Shown here piece by piece: positions 4,163-23,733 of a stretch of DNA of 64,000 bases. The notes beneath the pieces are model-generated. The model was given only the letters and a program-made list of their open reading frames with translations, made no database searches and had not been told where the DNA came from. The DNA is from Glutamicibacter sp. JL.03c (GTDB taxonomy: Bacteria; Actinomycetota; Actinomycetes; Actinomycetales; Micrococcaceae). Both the position numbers and the translations under genes were made by a program. How positions within the stretch are numbered: position 1 is the stretch's first letter; each line of letters opens with the position of its first letter. The DNA lies in assembly GCF_025854375.1 (NCBI RefSeq), contig NZ_CP107575.1, positions 248,001 to 312,000 of the forward strand. Reading direction: 5' to 3'.

Positions 4163-4235
4163 GCCCCCATCGTCTAGCGGCCTAGGACACCGCCCTTTCA
4201 CGGCGGCGGCACGGGTTCGAATCCCGTTGGGGGTA
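4163..4235 (+). tRNA. tRNA-Glu (TTC)
   Basis: 73 bases fold as a standard cloverleaf. The acceptor arm GCCCCCA pairs with TGGGGGT, with a G-U pair at the end. The anticodon loop reads CTTTCAC, giving TTC. The T arm ACGGGTTCGAATCCCGT is canonical. CCA is not encoded. It is the first gene of a four-tRNA cluster. Confidence 0.97.
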
Positions 4236-4239
4236 CAAG

Positions 4240-4292
4240 CAACTAATTCATTAGTTGTCAGATGGAGAAATCCATTGGCTTGCGAAAGCAAG
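4240..4292 (+). other. Three consecutive hairpins in the tRNA-Glu/tRNA-Asp spacer
   Basis: CAACTAAT-TC-ATTAGTTG (4240-4257), ATGGA-GAAA-TCCAT (4262-4275) and CTTGC-GAAA-GCAAG (4279-4292) follow one another. The last two are closed by GAAA tetraloops. They probably act as processing or stability elements in the tRNA precursor. Confidence 0.6.
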
Positions 4293-4365
4293 GCCCTGTA
4301 GCGCAGTTGGTTAGCGCGCCGCCCTGTCACGGCGGAGGTCGCGGGTTCAAGTCCCGTCAGGGTCG
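4292..4365 (+). tRNA. tRNA-Asp (GTC), copy 1
   Basis: 74 bases. Acceptor GGCCCTG pairs with CAGGGTC, anticodon loop CTGTCAC gives GTC, and the discriminator is G. The T arm GCGGGTTCAAGTCCCGT is canonical. The second Asp gene at 4548 appears identical base for base. Confidence 0.97.
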
Positions 4366-4368
4366 CTC

Positions 4369-4392
4369 AATTTACTAATCTATTAGTAAATT
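4369..4392 (+). terminator. AT-rich hairpin after the first tRNA-Asp
   Basis: AATTTACTAAT-CT-ATTAGTAAATT is a perfect 11-bp stem. It may be a processing signal or a weak terminator. AT-rich hairpins of this type also follow tRNA-Glu here. Confidence 0.45.
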
Positions 4393-4414
4393 TGGTGTCC
4401 ACTAAGTGGTACCA

Positions 4415-4487
4415 GGCTCTGTAGCTCAGTTGGTAGAGCGTTCGACTGAAAATCGAAAGGTCACCGGATCGACGCCGGTCGGAGCCA
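4415..4487 (+). tRNA. tRNA-Phe (GAA)
   Basis: 73 bases. Acceptor GGCTCTG pairs with CGGAGCC, including one G-U pair. The anticodon loop CTGAAAA gives GAA, and the discriminator is A. The T loop reads GATCGAC rather than TTCGAAT-type, a mild departure that still allows the usual T-stem pairing CCGG/CCGG. Confidence 0.95.
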
Positions 4488-4493
4488 CGCAGG

Positions 4494-4515
4494 CCCTCGG
4501 TTTACCGAGGGTTTT
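4494..4515 (+). terminator. Hairpin with T run after tRNA-Phe
   Basis: CCCTCGG-TTTA-CCGAGGG followed by TTTT is a compact intrinsic terminator or processing hairpin between tRNA-Phe and the second tRNA-Asp. Confidence 0.6.
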
Positions 4516-4547
4516 ACTGTGTGTATTGAAAGTTATTCAAAACACTA

Positions 4548-4621
4548 GGCCCTGTAGCGCAGTTGGTTAGCGCGCCGCCCTGTCACGGCGGAGGTCGCGG
4601 GTTCAAGTCCCGTCAGGGTCG
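4548..4621 (+). tRNA. tRNA-Asp (GTC), copy 2
   Basis: 74 bases matching the Asp gene at 4292-4365, with the same acceptor, GTC anticodon and G discriminator. Its own spacer differs, so this is a gene duplication with divergent flanks. Confidence 0.97.
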
Positions 4622-4628
4622 CCTGATA

Positions 4629-4660
4629 AGCAAATGCTCCGGTTTTCCGGGGCATTTGCT
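4629..4660. terminator. Terminator of the tRNA cluster and of the hypothetical gene at 4675
   Basis: AGCAAATGCTCCGG pairs with CCGGGGCATTTGCT (one G-U pair) around a TTTT loop, giving a 14-bp stem between the last tRNA and a convergent gene. Confidence 0.75.
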
Positions 4661-4674
4661 GTATCTGCGGATAT

Positions 4675-5529
4675 CTAGTTGGCTCGTCCCAAATGGCGTG
4701 GTCCCAGCCAGCGGTTGCTCAGCCTGCGATAGGCCGCGGCAGCGCCGGTCATGTCGCCATCATCCAAAGCCTGCAGGCCATCAAGCAGGTCATTGGGCGA
4801 ATCGTCAGGCCATACAATCTCAGCCAAAAGACCGTAGTCCAGCTCGATGACCGAGCGGCTATCAAAGGACTCCAGCCAACTGCCCAAGCTGCCCAGTTCT
4901 TCGAAAAGCTGCGACTGGGGCGCATGGGTCACCAGCGTCTGGACAGCCCAGGCAAGCCGCTCCACGGCCTGTTCAAAGCCGATGTACATGCGCGCGGTCT
5001 TGAGGTGCTCGCCTTCATGGATGACCTCTTGCTCATCATCTTCGCGGAACAACGCAAACCAGCTCAGTGGAATCCCCCAGGAAGACGTGCGGGTATGAAG
5101 GTGCGTCAGATCCCCGGCGAGCCGATCGGGATCCACCCGCTGCGCGTTCGCTTTCCGGGAGGCCGGCGGGACCAGGAGATCGAAGACTTCTGGGCGGATG
5201 GCCTCTTCGGCCTGCTCGGCTGCGAGCAGGCTGCGCGCCTGCAGCTGCCCGGGGCAGTAGCGGGTGTGTTCGGTGCCCTGGTAATCAAGGGTCTTGATGA
5301 CCCGGAAGAATTCGGGCTCATTGTGCGGGAAAGGGTCGGAAACGCTGCGCAAGGTGCGTTGCCATAGCCGCTCATTTTCGAACTCGTCCCATTGTGCGGC
5401 GGTGCGTTGCGGTGTGCGCAGAATGATCGACTGGGCCCAGTCTTCAAAGGTATCCAGCGGCTCGTAAACGCGCAGGTGTGCCGTGGCCGAGGTGAGTTCA
5501 TCGGTGGGCCCAGTCAATTTAGAGGTCAT
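4675..5529 (-). CDS. Conserved hypothetical protein, actinobacterial
   Basis: 284 residues, cytoplasmic, acidic, no membrane segment or recognised motif. The sequence is well ordered rather than low complexity: an N-terminal LRVYEPLDTFEDW segment, a central PPASRKANAQRVDPDRLAGDLTH segment and a C-terminal GGDMTGAAAAYRRL-like end (GDMTGAAAAYRRLSNRWLGP). I recall similar uncharacterised proteins in related actinobacteria, but name no function. It ends two bases from exonuclease III upstream in the same direction, so the two are probably cotranscribed. Confidence 0.75.
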   Translation of the reverse strand: MTSKLTGPTDELTSATAHLRVYEPLDTFEDWAQSIILRTPQRTAAQWDEFENERLWQRTLRSVSDPFPHNEPEFFRVIKTLDYQGTEHTRYCPGQLQARSLLAAEQAEEAIRPEVFDLLVPPASRKANAQRVDPDRLAGDLTHLHTRTSSWGIPLSWFALFREDDEQEVIHEGEHLKTARMYIGFEQAVERLAWAVQTLVTHAPQSQLFEELGSLGSWLESFDSRSVIELDYGLLAEIVWPDDSPNDLLDGLQALDDGDMTGAAAAYRRLSNRWLGPRHLGRAN

Positions 5530-5531
5530 GG

Positions 5532-6332
5532 CTAGTCCGCGAGCTCCACAATGACCGGTGCGTGGTCGCTGGCGCCCTTGCCCTTTCGTTCCTCCCGGTC
5601 AATGCTTGCCGAGGTGACTCGCGCGGTGAGCGCGGGGGACGTCAGGGAGAAATCGATACGCATGCCTTCGCCCTTGGGGAAGCGCAACTGGGTGTAATCC
5701 CAGTAGGTGTACTGGCCTTCGGTGTAGCCGCGGACGACATCGCTGAAGCCCAGATCTTCAAAAGCGGTGAACGCTGCGCGCTCGGGAGCCGAAACGTGTG
5801 TGAGCTTGTTCTCCAGGAAGAAATCAATGTCCCAGACATCTCCATCCTTCGGGGCGATATTCCAGTCGCCCATCAAGGCGATTTGGGCTTCCGGGTTCTC
5901 ATCGAGCCATTGCCCGGAACGCTGCTTGAGTTCATCGAGCCAGTTCAGCTTGTAGGCCATGTGCTCGTCGTCCAGGGCACGGCCGTTCGGGACGTACAGG
6001 CTCCAGATGCGCACGCCCCCGCAGGTTGCGGCGATGGCCCGAGGCTCCTGGATCGGGTTCTTGCCGCCCTTGCCGAATTCCGGCTGGCCCGGGAAGGTGC
6101 GCTGCACATCTTCAAGTCCTACGCGTGAAGCAATGGCTACGCCATTCCACTGGTTAACGCCGAAGTGCGCTACCTCGTAGTCGTTGTTCTCGAACAATTC
6201 CCACGGAAAATTCTCGTCTTTGCATTTCGTTTCCTGGATAGCCAGGACATCCACGTCGGTGCGGCGCAGCCAGTCCTCAACGCGGTCGGCGCGGGCTCGC
6301 AGCGAGTTCACATTCCAAGTTGCAATCTTCAC
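5532..6332 (-). CDS. xth: Exodeoxyribonuclease III (AP endonuclease)
   Basis: 266 residues, full length for the ExoIII branch of the endonuclease/exonuclease/phosphatase fold. Family motifs are in order: the N-terminal KIATWNVNSLRAR, the metal-binding QETKC (Glu), the LYVPNGR segment, the LMGDWNIAP Asp/Asn pair and the C-terminal RIDFSLTS and SDHAPV with catalytic Asp-His. The enzyme cuts DNA at abasic sites and trims 3' ends in base excision repair. It begins divergently from the 3-hydroxyisobutyryl-CoA hydrolase gene. Confidence 0.95.
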   Translation of the reverse strand: MKIATWNVNSLRARADRVEDWLRRTDVDVLAIQETKCKDENFPWELFENNDYEVAHFGVNQWNGVAIASRVGLEDVQRTFPGQPEFGKGGKNPIQEPRAIAATCGGVRIWSLYVPNGRALDDEHMAYKLNWLDELKQRSGQWLDENPEAQIALMGDWNIAPKDGDVWDIDFFLENKLTHVSAPERAAFTAFEDLGFSDVVRGYTEGQYTYWDYTQLRFPKGEGMRIDFSLTSPALTARVTSASIDREERKGKGASDHAPVIVELAD

Positions 6333-6383
6333 AAGTTCAACCTATCAAGTTTGCCGACCTGTGCCACTTCAATTTACTTGGAA

Positions 6384-6396
6384 GTCCGAGTATATT
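6384..6396 (+). promoter_or_regulatory. Candidate MarR operator and -10 box before the valine operon
   Basis: GTCCGAGTATATT matches 12 of 13 bases of the complement of the operator before the acyl-CoA dehydrogenase gene (GTCCAAGTATATT). It lies in an ACTTGGA-AG-TCCGAGT inverted repeat and includes TATATT, a plausible -10 box, about 40 bases before the start codon. Confidence 0.55.
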
Positions 6397-6434
6397 CGTG
6401 TGCAGAAGGTCACGCCAATCACTGCAAGGAGGCA

Positions 6435-7490
6435 ATGGTGCCGGAAATCCTGACCGAACGTCGCGGCCACTTGGGCCTGATCACGCTTAACCGCCCCAAG
6501 GTGCTGAACGCCTTGAACACCTCGATGTGCCAAATAATTCTTGATACTTTGCTTGCCTGGCGTGATGACCCCGACATCGCGCAGGTGGCGGTTCAGGGCG
6601 CGGGGGATCGTGGGCTCTGCGCAGGCGGCGACATCGTCGCCATCTACCAGGACATCAAGGAACGGACCGGATCCTCCGAGAATTTCTGGCGCATCGAATA
6701 CCAGCTGAACGTGCTCATCAATGAGTTTCCCAAGCCCTACATCGCGTTGATGAGCGGCATCGTCCTGGGTGGCGGCATCGGCATCTCCGCGCACGGCAGC
6801 CACCGAATCGTCACCGATTCGAGCAAATGCGGAATGCCAGAAGTCGGCATCGGCTTTTTCCCGGACGTCGGCGGCACGCACCTGCTGGCCAAGGCCCCGC
6901 ATGCCGCCGGCCGATTGGCGGCCCTGACCGGAAGCAAATTCGGTGCAGCCGATGCCATCCTCCTCGGACTGGCCGACAACTACGTGCCTGAGGACCAGCT
7001 GGCCCGGCTGCTGGTTGAGCTGGAAAGCGAATCAGCGCAGGCCGTCATCGAGAGGCACCGGCAAACCCCGCCGCCCGGCTACATGCATGAGCCCTGGGTT
7101 CGGGCCTTCGATGGGGAGAACCTGCGCGAGATATTGCTCTCGCTGCACTCCAGCCAGGCGCCCGCGGCGCAGGACATGGTCGAAACCCTGCGAGGTGCCT
7201 GCCCCAGCTCGGTGCGGCTGACCAACGAACTCATCCGGCGCGCCGGGGATGATCTCCGCGCGGATCTGCAGCGCGAATTCCGTGCCGCGCTGCATCGCCT
7301 GGATGACCCCGACTTCGCAGAAGGAATCAGGGCCGCGGTCATCGACAAGGACCGCACACCGCACTGGGTGGAATCGCTGCCCGGGTTGAGCCATGAACAA
7401 CGAACCGAACGGCATCTGGGTCCATTGCCGGGAGCCGAATTGAATTACGCCATGCTCGGCGCAAGCGCAGTAGAGAAGAGTGCATCATGA
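6435..7490 (+). CDS. 3-hydroxyisobutyryl-CoA hydrolase (crotonase fold)
   Basis: About 351 residues. The crotonase fold is clear: GLITLNRPKVLNALN near the start, the oxyanion-hole loop GLCAGGDIVAIYQD, then VLGGGIGIS and MPEVGIGFFPDVGGTHLLAK. The length and GGDI/GFFPDVG motifs separate the hydrolase from shorter enoyl-CoA hydratases. It releases 3-hydroxyisobutyrate in valine breakdown, and the next gene uses that product. AAGGAGG at 6426-6432 is only two bases from the ATG at 6435; the GTG at 6438 has better spacing and could be the real start. The stop overlaps the next start by four bases. Confidence 0.9.
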   Translation: MVPEILTERRGHLGLITLNRPKVLNALNTSMCQIILDTLLAWRDDPDIAQVAVQGAGDRGLCAGGDIVAIYQDIKERTGSSENFWRIEYQLNVLINEFPKPYIALMSGIVLGGGIGISAHGSHRIVTDSSKCGMPEVGIGFFPDVGGTHLLAKAPHAAGRLAALTGSKFGAADAILLGLADNYVPEDQLARLLVELESESAQAVIERHRQTPPPGYMHEPWVRAFDGENLREILLSLHSSQAPAAQDMVETLRGACPSSVRLTNELIRRAGDDLRADLQREFRAALHRLDDPDFAEGIRAAVIDKDRTPHWVESLPGLSHEQRTERHLGPLPGAELNYAMLGASAVEKSAS

Positions 7491-19411: not shown

Positions 19412-19528
19412 CGCCGCTCAAGAGCGTTTCGAAGTCTGATGTGAGCGGAAAGTTACCTTATTTCAACAGGCGAAAACATATAGGCGCAGGTCAAGTCTCA
19501 TTCAGTAATATGAGGGCATTCTCATCCT

Positions 19529-19568
19529 GTTCTACTTTTGCCTTCATTCTGTTCACCTAATGTTCACC
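19529..19568 (+). promoter_or_regulatory. PHO-box-like array of 11-nt direct repeats
   Basis: Four units start every 11 nt: GTTCTAC (19529), GCCTTCA (19540), GTTCACC (19551) and GTTCACC (19562). The last two form GTTCACC-N4-GTTCACC, the core of the PhoP binding site described in Streptomyces. The array ends 40 bases before the DUF4956 start codon, a normal place for an activator. Confidence 0.7.
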
Positions 19569-19608
19569 TAGAAGGGATTATCACTCCACACTATTGAAAG
19601 GGATAAGA

Positions 19609-20280
19609 ATGTTGTCATTCTGGACAGGACTAGCCTCAAACGTCATCGGCATTACCGTGCTGGTGTACTTCGTGTACTTCCGTCGGCACTTCCGCCGTGA
19701 CCTCGTACTTGCGTACATCGCCTTGAGCATGGGGATCTTCGCGGTCACCTTGCTGCTTTCCGGCAGCGGAGCAGGCATGGGGCTGGGTCTTGGCCTCTTC
19801 GGCATCCTTTCAATCATCCGCCTTCGGTCGGATACGCTGACCCAGGAAGAAGTCGCGTACTACTTCATTTCCCTGGCCATTGGTTTGGTCAACGGATTGC
19901 ATCCGGATCCGGCATGGTTGGCACCGTCGGCCACCGCGGCTCTGGTGCTGGTCATGTTCCTGGCGGATCACCCAAGTTTCGCCCCGCGGACCGAACGCCA
20001 GACGGTGACCTTGGAGAAGGCCTATCCCAAGAAGGCTGATCTCCAGTCGGCTCTGGAAGAACTGCTTGATGCAAAGATCCTGCGCACCGTGGTCGTCGAG
20101 CTGGATATGGTTCGTGACCTGACCATCGTTGACGTTCGCTTCCGCATCAATGCCGCTTCGCCGGATAGCAACTGCGCCAAGGCGGAGAACTATGCAGGAA
20201 CCTACGAACTGGCCAAGGGGCAAAGCGCTTCCCAGAATTCTTCGGTGCAGAACGGAGCCAAGCAGGAGTCCTGGTCCTAA
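19609..20280 (+). CDS. DUF4956 membrane protein
   Basis: 223 residues from the ATG at 19609, preceded by AAAGGGAT; a TTG 15 bases upstream is less likely. Three to four membrane helices fill the N-terminal half (WTGLASNVIGITVLVYFVYF, LVLAYIALSMGIFAVTLLLS, a Gly-rich GLGLGLFGILSII and a LVNGLHPD... AALVLVMFLA pair), with the conserved LRSDTLTQEEVAYYFISLAIGL between. A cytoplasmic ferredoxin-like tail follows. DUF4956 proteins are often coded beside VTC-domain proteins, as here, where the stop and next ATG overlap (TAATG). A role in moving or handling the polymer made by the partner is an inference. Confidence 0.88.
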   Translation: MLSFWTGLASNVIGITVLVYFVYFRRHFRRDLVLAYIALSMGIFAVTLLLSGSGAGMGLGLGLFGILSIIRLRSDTLTQEEVAYYFISLAIGLVNGLHPDPAWLAPSATAALVLVMFLADHPSFAPRTERQTVTLEKAYPKKADLQSALEELLDAKILRTVVVELDMVRDLTIVDVRFRINAASPDSNCAKAENYAGTYELAKGQSASQNSSVQNGAKQESWS

Positions 20281-21098
20281 TGCCTGCGCTCGATAGCCGT
20301 AATCAAACTGACCAGGCGACAAAGGCTCGCGAAGCATTGGAACAAGCCGTTGACTGCCGAGAACCGATCAGCCTGGAAGAAGTCGTGTCCGAGGCCGCGC
20401 TTCAAACTCGTGTTGATAAGAAATTCTTGCTCGCTCCACAACAGTTCACTGCACTATCGGAACGCCTAGGCGAGAAGTTCAAGGTCATGCAGATCGATGG
20501 CCTTCGCACCTTCCGCTATGAATCCGTGTACTTCGATACCGAAGACTTTGACCAGTATCGGGCGCACCGGCAAGGGCGGCGCAGACGCTACAAGGTCCGC
20601 TCTCGAACCTACGCTGATACCGGGCTATCCATGTTCGAGATCAAGACCAAGGGCCTGCGCGGGGCAACCGTGAAACACCGGATCCAGCAGGACCTGCATC
20701 GGTCGGGCGAGCTGACCGAAGAAAACCTGCAGTTCCTGGAATCCGTATTGCTTAGCGAATACGGCCAAGGAGTCCCTGAACTGCAACCGGTGCTAGACAG
20801 CTCCTATACGCGTGCCACCTTTGTGAACCCCATCGATTCCGAACGATTGACCTGCGATGTCGAACTGGGGTACGCCAACTCCAAGACACACATCAACGGG
20901 CCAGACTTGATTGTCGTCGAGACGAAGTCTGCCGATGGCCGTGGAGCCGCTGACCGGGCTCTGGCTGAGCTGGGAATTAGGGAAGTGTCCATGTCCAAGT
21001 ACTGCATCGGAGTGGCTCTGCTCAATCCGCATCTGCCGGCAAACCGCTGGAGCCGGCTGCTGCAGCAAAACTTTGTCCCGGATCCCAGCCTGAGCTAG
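20280..21098 (+). CDS. VTC-domain polyphosphate polymerase-like protein
   Basis: 272 residues. The triphosphate-tunnel VTC fold shows in RVDKKFLLAPQQF, RYESVYFDTEDFDQYRAH, RRRRYKVRSRTYAD, MFEIKTKG and LIVVETKSADG: alternating basic and acidic residues that line the tunnel and bind ATP, polyphosphate and metal. In yeast Vtc4 this domain makes polyphosphate from ATP. Here it is a lone cytoplasmic domain, with the membrane part supplied by the overlapping DUF4956 gene. The upstream PHO-like repeats support a phosphate role. Activity is inferred from the family, not shown. Confidence 0.87.
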   Translation: MPALDSRNQTDQATKAREALEQAVDCREPISLEEVVSEAALQTRVDKKFLLAPQQFTALSERLGEKFKVMQIDGLRTFRYESVYFDTEDFDQYRAHRQGRRRRYKVRSRTYADTGLSMFEIKTKGLRGATVKHRIQQDLHRSGELTEENLQFLESVLLSEYGQGVPELQPVLDSSYTRATFVNPIDSERLTCDVELGYANSKTHINGPDLIVVETKSADGRGAADRALAELGIREVSMSKYCIGVALLNPHLPANRWSRLLQQNFVPDPSLS

Positions 21099-21114: not shown

Positions 21115-21783
21115 CTATTTTGCGGCTGCCAGCCGGTAGCCGAAGCCGCGGACAGTCTCGAAGCGTGAAGAGCCGAGCTTGTTGCGAAGGTAGCGGACAT
21201 ACACGTCAACCACGTTGGAACCTGGATCAAAATCGTAGCCCCAGACCCGCGAAAGCAGCTGTTCCCGGCTGAGCACCTGGCCTGGGTTGCGCAAGAATGC
21301 TTCGGCCAGGGCGAATTCGCGGGCTGAAAGATCCACTTCGGTCGAATCCACGGTGACCCTTCGGCGCAGCAGATCCATGTGCAGGTTTTCATGGGTCAAA
21401 GACGAAACTTCGGGGGCGTTGTCCTCGGTCCGCAAGCGCAGCCGTACTCGGGCAAGCAGCTCATCAAAGTGGAATGGCTTGGCCATGTAGTCATCCGCGC
21501 CGTTTTGCAATCCGGCGACAGTGTCTTCAACGCTTCCGCGAGCGGTCAGGATGATGACCGGGGTGGTGATCTGCGCTGCCCGCAGTCGACGCAGAACGGA
21601 GAATCCATCTTCATCCGGCAAGCCCAAATCCAGGATGATCAATTCATGCTCGCCGTCGAGCGCCTGGGTGAATCCGTCGTGGCCGGTCTCGGCAATGGAG
21701 GAGGTCAGCCCGGCAGCCCGCAGCCCCTTGGCGACAAAGGAGCTAATTCGGGGTTCATCTTCGACGATCAATATTTGGCTCAT
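21115..21783 (-). CDS. OmpR/PhoB family response regulator
   Basis: 222 residues. The receiver domain has the acidic pair EDE at 8-10, the phosphoacceptor Asp52 in LIILDLGLPD, Thr in IILTARG and Lys in MAKPF. The C-terminal winged helix reads LSAREFALAEAFLRNPGQVLSREQLL then VVDVYVRYLRNKLG. It is the last gene of a three-gene operon; its start overlaps the kinase stop by four bases. It converges on the VTC gene. Likely target is the 11-bp direct repeat before the operon. Confidence 0.95.
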   Translation of the reverse strand: MSQILIVEDEPRISSFVAKGLRAAGLTSSIAETGHDGFTQALDGEHELIILDLGLPDEDGFSVLRRLRAAQITTPVIILTARGSVEDTVAGLQNGADDYMAKPFHFDELLARVRLRLRTEDNAPEVSSLTHENLHMDLLRRRVTVDSTEVDLSAREFALAEAFLRNPGQVLSREQLLSRVWGYDFDPGSNVVDVYVRYLRNKLGSSRFETVRGFGYRLAAAK

Positions 21784-23234
21784 GCTTCCTTGCTTCCAGT
21801 CGACAGCGGCAAATCAATATAGAACGTGGAACCCTTGCTTGGCTCCGAGTTTACCCAGACGCGGCCACCGTGCGTTTCGGCGATGGCTTGCACAATATTC
21901 AATCCCAAGCCGGACCCCGAGGAACGTGCAGAGTTCTGCCCGCGTCCAAAGCGTTCAAAGATGCGTTCCAGGTCCTCGGCTTGGATGCCGATGCCGGCGT
22001 CGGAGACCCACCAACGCAGGGTGGTCTCTCCATGTCCGTTTCGCAGGATCTCGTTGCCCAAGGCAATGCGGCTATCATCTTCGGAAAATTTCACGGCATT
22101 GGCGCATAGCTGCAGCATGGCCTGGGTCAGGCGTATCGGGTCCAGTTTGACGGTAGCCTCGGTGCGGTAGTCGATACGCCATTGACGCTGGCCGAGACCG
22201 CGGGCCTTGTCCAGGATGTCATCGAGTAGCTTGCCCACTTGTACCGGCTCAATCTGCAGGAAGTCCGTACGATTGGACTTGGCCAGCGTCACCAAGTCAT
22301 TGATCAGCAGGGACATGCGACCCAATTCATCCATGGCGATATCGCGGCTCTGCTTCACATCCTGCGGGTCATCAGGATCCATCAATTCCAGATGGCCGTT
22401 GATGATGGTCACCGGCGTGCGCAACTCATGTCCCACATCGTCCAGCAATTGGCGTTGGGCCTTGAGCGCGCCCTCGAGGCGGTCCAGCATTTCGTTGACC
22501 GTGACGGTCAGGTCTGCGAACTCGTCATTGCCGGAGACTTCAATACGCTGGGAGACGTCGGTTTCAGAGATCTGCTGCGCAGTAGTCTGCAACTTGCGAA
22601 TCGGTTCAAGCATTCGCCCCACTACCAGCCAGGCCGCCAGGGCCGAGAGTGCCATGACCGAAGCGCCCACGGCGCTGTAGATCACGAAGTTCCGGTCATT
22701 GGCAACGGATTCGGCCGAGTAGTCATAGGCCAAGACGAATGAGCCGCGCTCATGATCGGCCGGCAATCTCACCGGTACCACCACGGCACGATACGTGGCG
22801 ATATCCGTTTTTATGGAGCCCAGCCGGATGTGGTTGCTGTCTTGGACTTGGAAGGCCCAGTCGATGAATTCGGGATCGTCTTCCAGCCGGGTGCCCACGA
22901 TGTCCGGCGCAGTCCAACGGACCTCCTTGCCGACAAGGGAGACCATTCCCTGCTTGGGGGAGGGCAAGGTGCGCTGCATGGCGATGTAGAGCAGGTCCTC
23001 GGCATGCTCGAATCGTTTCATGGTTCGCGGGTCGACACCCGTTTCGGTCAGCACGCCGAATTCCTTGACGGAACGGGAGAGCGATTCATCAAGACGTTCA
23101 TTGAGCTCGTGGCGTTGCACGGCGAAGCTGGCAGCGCCAGCGGCAACCAGTGCCAGGCCGACCAAAAGCAGCATGCCGGTAAGCACGCGTGCGCGGATGG
23201 ACCATCGGCGTTCGGGTGCTTTAGTCATCGTCAT
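21780..23234 (-). CDS. Sensor histidine kinase
   Basis: 484 residues. Membrane helix 1 at about 17-38, an extracytoplasmic sensor of about 140 residues, helix 2 at about 184-206, HAMP, then HisKA with His269 in DDVGHELRTP, and a HATPase domain with NAVKFSEDD, DAGIGIQAEDLERIFERF and GSGLGLNIV. It is an EnvZ/CreC-like class I kinase. Its first codons overlap the end of the acidic-tail gene, and its stop overlaps the regulator start, so the three are translationally linked. The signal is unknown; the acidic neighbour hints at cations or envelope state. Confidence 0.93.
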   Translation of the reverse strand: MTMTKAPERRWSIRARVLTGMLLLVGLALVAAGAASFAVQRHELNERLDESLSRSVKEFGVLTETGVDPRTMKRFEHAEDLLYIAMQRTLPSPKQGMVSLVGKEVRWTAPDIVGTRLEDDPEFIDWAFQVQDSNHIRLGSIKTDIATYRAVVVPVRLPADHERGSFVLAYDYSAESVANDRNFVIYSAVGASVMALSALAAWLVVGRMLEPIRKLQTTAQQISETDVSQRIEVSGNDEFADLTVTVNEMLDRLEGALKAQRQLLDDVGHELRTPVTIINGHLELMDPDDPQDVKQSRDIAMDELGRMSLLINDLVTLAKSNRTDFLQIEPVQVGKLLDDILDKARGLGQRQWRIDYRTEATVKLDPIRLTQAMLQLCANAVKFSEDDSRIALGNEILRNGHGETTLRWWVSDAGIGIQAEDLERIFERFGRGQNSARSSGSGLGLNIVQAIAETHGGRVWVNSEPSKGSTFYIDLPLSTGSKEA

Positions 23235-23664
23235 CTACGTCGTCGGCCTCGTCATCGTCGTCATCAGGCTCGTAATCGTCATCGTCGTCGTCATCGTAGT
23301 TTTGGTTCCCTGACGGTGGCAATGGGGTGACGGTTTTCTTAGGTGGAGCCGGAGCGGACGGCTTTGGCTTGGGGTTGACCGTTGGCGTTGGCTTCGGCGC
23401 AGGCTTTTTCGTAGAGCTGCTTGGTTTGGGGGTGGGGGATGGCGTGGGCTTCTTGGTCTGGGATGCGGAGGGGCTTGGTGCTGGTGTTGGGCCGTTAGGT
23501 ACTCCGCTGGTCGGGGAGGGGGACTCTTCTTCGAAGATGAATCCTTCACCTAGATCTTGATCCGAGGGGCCGCCCAAGGCGCGGCTGATCCCGAAGGCTC
23601 CCAAGCAGATGATCGCCACCACGGCGATGGAAGCCACGATGCGGCGCAACATTTCCTTTCCCAT
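23221..23664 (-). CDS. Membrane-anchored protein with Pro-rich stalk and Asp-rich tail
   Basis: 147 residues. An N-terminal anchor or signal segment (RIVASIAVVAIICLGAFGIS, residues about 8-27) is followed by a Ser/Pro/Thr/Lys stalk and an acidic tail of some 35 residues, mostly Asp, that should lie outside the cell. No known domain is present. Such a tail could bind Ca, Mg or other cations. The last 14 bases overlap the start of the histidine kinase gene in another frame: the Asp codons GATGACGATGAC supply the kinase ATG codons. It is the first gene of the operon with the kinase and regulator. Confidence 0.8.
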   Translation of the reverse strand: MGKEMLRRIVASIAVVAIICLGAFGISRALGGPSDQDLGEGFIFEEESPSPTSGVPNGPTPAPSPSASQTKKPTPSPTPKPSSSTKKPAPKPTPTVNPKPKPSAPAPPKKTVTPLPPSGNQNYDDDDDDDYEPDDDDDEADDVDDDD

Positions 23665-23685
23665 GCGACCTATTGTTCCGGATGC

Positions 23686-23703
23686 AAATGAGATCTAAAT
23701 GAG
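23686..23703 (-). promoter_or_regulatory. 11-bp spaced direct repeat before the two-component operon
   Basis: AAATGAG occurs at 23686-23692 and 23697-23703 on the plus strand (CTCATTT twice on the transcribed strand), exactly 11 bp apart. That is the spacing bound by OmpR-family dimers. It lies about 20 bases before the first start codon, over the expected -35 region, suggesting autoactivation. Confidence 0.55.
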
Positions 23704-23733
23704 AGATGCCACTAGATGACGGCGCAAGCAGAG

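Follow-up and report, generated by a model that had tools for sequence, protein, structure and literature searches.

A conserved TCTCAT array and a neighbouring two-component system as the probable control of a DUF4956-VTC operon in Glutamicibacter

Our comparison of promoters across the family suggests that an operon for a VTC-type polyphosphate polymerase in Glutamicibacter is probably driven by the response regulator of a neighbouring two-component system, acting from an 11-nt-phased TCTCAT array, and that a PHO-box-like GTTCACC pair in the same promoter has a secondary part. The window, by which we mean the whole stretch of DNA analysed, covers 64,000 nt (C1:248001-312000) of a 3.59-Mb single-contig Glutamicibacter genome. 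The features discussed here are the following.

19510..19547, plus strand: 11-nt-phased array, predicted site of the neighbouring response regulator
19551..19568, plus strand: PHO-box-like pair GTTCACC-N4-GTTCACC (exact, 0 mismatches), candidate PhoP site, secondary and probably negative
19558..19563, plus strand: predicted -10 hexamer TAATGT, exactly 10 nt past the last array unit
19609..20280, plus strand: DUF4956 membrane protein, 223 aa, predicted partner or channel (PF16316, E 7.8e-59)
20280..21098, plus strand: VTC-domain protein, 272 aa, predicted polyphosphate polymerase (PF09359, E 2.8e-29)
21115..21783, minus strand: OmpR-family response regulator, predicted activator of the VTC operon and of its own operon
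21780..23234, minus strand: sensor histidine kinase, 484 aa (HisKA, HAMP, HATPase_c)
23221..23664, minus strand: small protein, first gene of the two-component operon (sequence read directly)
23704..23672, minus strand: promoter of the two-component operon, TCTCAT-N5-TCTCAT, 10 nt, AACAAT

The operon that the original prediction placed behind the repeats is real, as both Pfam matches attest: the DUF4956 gene, starting at ATG 19609, and the VTC gene share one overlapping base and form an operon. Convergent to it lies the two-component operon (21115-23664, minus strand), which encodes the regulator, the kinase and a small Asp-rich protein. The latter consists of a hydrophobic N-terminal stretch, a Pro-rich linker and an Asp-rich tail, and a Pfam search at E 0.001 assigned it to no family. 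The nearest named relatives of the window VTC protein are from Glutamicibacter, with 93% in Glutamicibacter sp. JC586. Elsewhere in the window, positions 4163-4623 hold a cluster of tRNA genes for Glu, Asp, Phe and Asp, both Asp genes being of the tRNA-Asp(GTC) type.

Two superposed elements in the DUF4956-VTC promoter

Across the family, 54 of 197 genomes gave a VTC match in our search. For comparison we took 38 of the 47 VTC places outside the genus, leaving out G088, G137, G143 and the split matches of G050, G127 and G131; the matches in these last three genomes fall into two pieces slightly apart, possibly broken or rearranged genes. A midpoint-rooted tree of 63 proteins, comprising these 38 and all 25 genus places, resolved group A (34 rows including the window, 16 from the genus and 18 from outside it) and groups B/C (29 rows including the genome's second copy). 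A small number of rows, including L124, sit on long branches, and as the species are related the counts given below are not independent events.

Two identical GTTCACC units, at 19551-19557 and 19562-19568, follow each other at an exact 11-nt step, and the last of them ends 40 nt (counted as a 7-mer) or 36 nt (as an 11-mer) before the DUF4956 start codon, both as originally described. The original prediction had counted four such units. The GTTCACC pair stands, but the two units upstream do not, since GTTCTAC (19529) and GCCTTCA (19540) agree with the consensus at 5/7 and 2/7 positions. They read better as TCTACT (19531) and CTTCAT (19542), members of another 11-nt array that begins further upstream and runs 2 nt out of register with the pair. 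What had been taken for a four-unit PHO array is two superposed elements.

The exact pair occurs once in the 3.59-Mb genome; six genomic sites lie within one mismatch of it (one exact, five with one mismatch), compared with none for a reversed control pattern, and its match was not equalled in any of 200 dinucleotide-shuffled versions of the 200-nt stretch upstream. GTTCACC direct repeats constitute the PHO box of Streptomyces PhoP (PMC4415409, PMC2605767), and the motif was rightly named in the original prediction, as it stands before pstS and phoU of the genus. GTTAACC-N4-GTTCACC (one mismatch) precedes 18 of 25 pstS-type genes, namely the main pstS, one per genome in all 18 genus genomes, while upstream of the other seven, a second pstS type, no PHO site was found at up to two mismatches. 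A further PHO site (C1:565007-565024) lies between a PhoR-like kinase gene and the divergent phoU (PF01895); this kinase gene is followed by one for an OmpR-family regulator, with no NCBIfam model over cut-off.

The scan of related DUF4956-VTC promoters that was proposed along with the original prediction, scored at up to three mismatches, placed the pair at -58 to -62 in 12 of the 16 Glutamicibacter promoters of group A and missed it in four (L042, L044, L046, L047); conservation at that place ended with the genus (0/18 outside), and the paralogous B/C promoters had no GTTCACC-type pair (0/29). Four of the 18 group A promoters outside the genus carry a GTTCACC-like pair elsewhere upstream (shuffle expectation 0.13), three of them among the six loci of genus g23, at -127 to -138 and upstream of the array, and one within the array of L124. 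The 12 carriers form one clade of the VTC tree (support 88/98), which argues for a single origin. The pair looks like a later addition in this Glutamicibacter clade and not like an ancestral control element; a PHO array as ancestral operator was rejected, given its absence from the four genus loci and, at that place, from all 18 loci outside.

The second element is older and more widely distributed. Its units in the window are ATGAGG (19510, inverted), TCTCAT (19520), TCTACT (19531) and CTTCAT (19542). The pattern used for scoring, ATGAGA-N4-TCTCAT-N5-TCTCCT-N5-TCTCAT at a threshold of 8 mismatches in 23, was drawn by eye from the scored promoters, so that its fit to the same set is partly circular; on these terms the array precedes 33 of 34 orthologous group A operons and none of the 29 paralogous B/C operons. 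Outside the genus every group A promoter but that of L145 passed (17 of 18, with 0 to 5 mismatches), as did all 16 from the genus (with 2 to 5), against shuffle expectations of 0.15 and 0.16, respectively, and 0.11 for B/C. More independent tests come from the best matches in the window, from the two-component promoter, from a strict pattern in 197 genomes and from an exact pattern across the genus, the last three being taken up in the next section. Within the 64-kb window, the best plus-strand match is 19510-19547 itself, with 3 mismatches to the strict pattern, and the best minus-strand match is the promoter of the two-component operon.

Exactly 10 nt past the array, xAnnnT is present in 32 of 33 group A promoters and TAnnnT in 29 (L145 left out; L132 and L139 counted from the fourth unit), whereas at other gaps from 4 to 21 nt at most 8 of 33 promoters fit xAnnnT. 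The single failure, L124, is a stretch that ended at the chosen start codon; by eye, CAGAGT follows there. This conserved gap sets the predicted -10 at TAATGT, 19558-19563, and the GTTCACC pair thus lies over it. In E. coli pho promoters, 11-nt direct repeats bound by the OmpR/PhoB family stand about 10 nt before the -10. The window promoter resembles this type in having phased repeats in place of a -35 at a fixed distance from the -10, but differs in its TCTCAT unit, its unnamed regulator and the inverted ATGAGA unit that often heads the array. The pair, for its part, has two 11-nt units with a GTTCACC core like the Streptomyces PHO box, from which it differs in its place over the predicted -10 and its restriction to one clade.

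These positions bear directly on the low-phosphate activation originally proposed. PhoP activating the operon from the pair could claim in its favour an exact PHO consensus unique in the genome, the same motif before the main pstS and phoU, and the GTTCACC-like pairs of g23 and L124; however, the pair straddles the predicted -10 and has no place upstream of it, it is missing from a quarter of the genus orthologues and, at that place, from all loci outside, and it is the TCTCAT array that precedes 33 of 34 operons, which makes such activation quite improbable. Only a little less improbable is that the neighbouring regulator binds the entire stretch, GTTCACC included, as one longer array without PhoP. 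The step is the same, and GTTCAC shares TCA and a pyrimidine with TCTCAC, a unit seen at other array promoters, but the pair is out of the TCTCAT register, extends past the -10 and, in the other 20 promoters, its columns hold no more information than the flanks (0.44 versus 0.43 bits). We would give somewhat more room, while still doubting it, to the idea that nothing binds the pair, which would then be promoter sequence inherited within one clade. Its single origin fits this well, yet within the 12-species clade the pair columns outside the -10 carry 1.56 bits versus 1.05 in the flanks, and the pair matches the pstS and phoU boxes. We favour the reading in which the TCTCAT array is the operator and phosphate control is probably secondary, recent and opposite in sign to the original proposal: covering the -10, PhoP, if bound, should block and lower transcription and not activate it.

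The neighbouring two-component system as candidate regulator

The promoter of the two-component operon itself carries the array. All 16 loci examined have TCTCAT-N5-TCTCAT followed after 10 nt by xAnnnT, upstream of the kinase start by 367 to 479 nt; the match is exact in 14 of them and has one mismatch in one and two in another. These loci are the window and 15 of 18 named loci, L119 being left out because the contig ends and L116 and L122 for want of a kinase match. This promoter stands directly before the small Asp-rich gene in the window, a gene whose like was not detected in L111, L114, L115, L117 and L118. Across the genus, 15 of 18 genomes have the exact pattern, each of them once, and controls never have it; judged by coordinates, in 14 of these 15 it adjoins the regulator or (G002, G004, G006, G007) lies within 3.3 kb of a VTC match. 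In G016 the whole block of VTC operon and two-component genes is absent and the promoter alone remains, between a DUF3151 and an Lrp-type gene (L293, G016:C5:34000-46000, near 7079).

A strict three-unit array yielded 49 sites (42 places once overlapping registers were merged) in 39 of the 197 family genomes, compared with one for the reversed pattern. In 11 of the 39 a match falls at the group A VTC promoter; the Glutamicibacter VTC promoters, the window's with its 3 mismatches included, are too degenerate to be caught. A regulator orthologue is present in 38 of these 39 genomes and in 61 of the 158 others (99 of 197 overall; Fisher p 2e-12, kinship ignored), with orthology cut at 51% identity or more, a value set after seeing that the next best match was at 43%. 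Array and regulator gene are also physically close: in G040, G067 and G125 the array has the regulator gene on one side and the VTC operon on the other, and in six genomes without a group A operon (G029, G037, G064, G087, G106, G122) its distance to the regulator gene is about 0.5 to 1.3 kb. Among group A genomes, the orthologue was found in 16 of 18 outside the genus and in all 11 sampled operon carriers within it. G111 has neither array nor orthologue, and G018 (L124) has the array without the orthologue. Regulator and VTC operon are neighbours at 8 of the 18 group A loci outside the genus; at the other ten (L124, L128, L132, L134, L139, L144, L145, L149, L156, L159) the stretch of about 10 kb gave no regulator match.

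The array is found at further promoters in other genera, before small Pro/Ser/Thr-rich proteins (at least one, L203, with an Asp-rich tail), a flavin amine oxidoreductase-like protein, a putative glycosyltransferase and others. At 28 such places, some of them close relatives, xAnnnT follows at 10 nt in 20; those that fail are L163, L170, L177, L178-L181, which may face an opposite-strand gene, and L207. The gene behind the array is FAD amine oxidoreductase-like at L166-L169, L171, L213 and L214, as assigned by Pfam for L166 and by sequence likeness for the rest. A second meeting place of both motifs is found upstream of a protein that contains a P-loop-like motif and falls in no Pfam family (L005 1440-2737, G000:C1:509607-510904), where an ATGA/TCTCATC-like block accompanies GTTCATC-N4-GTTAACC; the homologue of this protein in L177 has the TCTCAT array.

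An alignment of 12 kinases gave no clue to the stimulus. A CutR-type regulator, as in Streptomyces, was considered for the array and rejected, its reported motif TAWATAAA differing from TCTCAT, and a literature search for TCTCAT with a response regulator and a direct repeat returned no paper about such a system, judging by titles. A close parallel in actinobacterial control is PolS-PolR of Microlunatus phosphovorus, a two-component system acting on ppk, ppgk, pit and pstS (PMC6754071). It is likewise tied to polyphosphate genes, and its site GTTCACnnnnnGTTCaC fits the GTTCACC pair; it differs in these targets, and the term VTC does not appear in the main text of that paper.

The VTC-domain protein, its partner and the second polyphosphate route

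The structural model of the VTC protein (pLDDT 85.9, from 18 sequences) had yeast Vtc4 as its top match, with a Foldseek E of 2.5e-11 and a Z of 15.9 (rmsd 3.3 Å over 212 residues). The other best matches among solved folds were Vtc3 (Z 15.8) and Vtc2 (15.5), and the triphosphatase ygiF had 13.2; with Vtc3 and Vtc2 level with Vtc4 and ygiF near, the fold by itself is no proof of a polymerase. In a search with a profile of 28 VTC sequences, Vtc4 was found at E 1.6e-7 and Vtc2 at 3.8e-4. The window protein resembles the yeast Vtc proteins in fold and profile, and by profile is nearest to Vtc4, in keeping with the original assignment.

K48, K105, R107 and K122 are invariant in the 28 sequences and face Vtc4 K200, R264, R266 and K281 (R264 being a Lys here; the numbering of K200 and K281 was derived from that of R264 and R266). 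Changing R264 and R266 together with E426 impaired Vtc4 (PMC9911596), and E214 may be the counterpart of E426, an assignment made apart from the alignment. The protein shares with Vtc4 an R-x3-K start and is without ExExK, a motif of the hydrolases. Polyphosphate synthesis by the window protein is, on this basis, plausible but unproven. Alternative roles would be that of a tunnel-fold phosphatase, of a tunnel protein without catalytic activity or of an enzyme acting on some other phosphate compound, possibilities to which the fold scores of the non-catalytic Vtc3 and Vtc2 and of the hydrolase ygiF lend some weight. Against them stand the profile, the invariant basic residues facing the Vtc4 active site and the Vtc4-like start in place of the hydrolase motif, and we consider them possible though unlikely.

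The low-confidence model of the DUF4956 protein (pLDDT 49.7) has five long helices plus a small domain at the C terminus. A kinship with MgtC, suggested by eye, was dismissed on a profile comparison (probability under 3%). No SPX domain was found: Pfam at E 0.001 gives VTC alone in the 272-aa protein and DUF4956 alone in its partner. Compared with the yeast VTC complex, the window system shares the tunnel fold, the compared catalytic Lys/Arg residues and a membrane component encoded along with it, but differs in the absence of a detected SPX domain, in having its membrane part as a separate DUF4956 protein and, probably, in being under two-component control. Our literature search found no paper joining DUF4956 and the VTC domain by name. 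Accessory cotH-PPP-DUF4956 genes have been described beside Pel clusters (PMC7112168), where a gene named as a poly-phosphate polymerase is paired with DUF4956; the window operon differs in having no cotH directly beside it.

A cotH gene is present in a second operon of this genome, DUF4956-VTC-CotH (L123, G000:C1:1320800-1334000, 4211-7429). Its promoter is different, with neither PHO pair nor TCTCAT array and with its own conserved upstream block, roughly TGACCTGC-N-CCTTAG. Paralogous DUF4956 operons at L142, L136 and L155 are preceded by GGCACAG-N4-RGCACAG, also an 11-nt direct repeat, so these may answer to yet another OmpR-family regulator. Ppk1 is present in all 18 genus genomes searched, that of the window included, and with this second operon and Ppk1 in the same genome the original contrast with the usual Ppk route is wrong as stated. 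The 14 kb around ppk1 contain neither the array nor an exact PHO box, the best PHO-like site there having 2 mismatches.

Proposed mechanism and its implications

We postulate that the kinase (21780-23234) phosphorylates the response regulator (21115-21783), which would bind the TCTCAT array in the place of a -35 and recruit RNA polymerase to TAATGT 10 nt further on, as at a class-II-type promoter. The regulator would also activate its own operon, and with it the Asp-rich protein and the kinase. The VTC operon would then supply a VTC-type polyphosphate polymerase, with a cytosolic tunnel domain, and a DUF4956 membrane partner; if yeast VTC is a guide, the polymer may be pushed across the membrane during synthesis. 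A PHO-box pair was presumably added over the -10 in one clade of Glutamicibacter, where PhoP may damp the operon when phosphate is scarce. We consider it likely that the neighbouring regulator drives the operon from the array and that the pair is secondary.

Beyond this, one could imagine that the two-component system senses envelope or cation stress and answers with surface polyanions, namely the Asp-rich protein and polyphosphate exported by DUF4956-VTC, with a PhoP veto in one clade. We offer this as speculation with a low chance of being correct; if true, it would be a bacterial counterpart of the synthesis-coupled translocation of yeast.

The overlap of sites for two OmpR-family regulators illustrates how an 11-nt repeat can pass for a single PHO array. 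Our analysis puts forward a concrete candidate operator, with its regulator and promoter, for a VTC-type operon of a bacterium. As this organism has Ppk1 as well, deletion of a single regulator would make it possible to test why a bacterium maintains two routes to polyphosphate.
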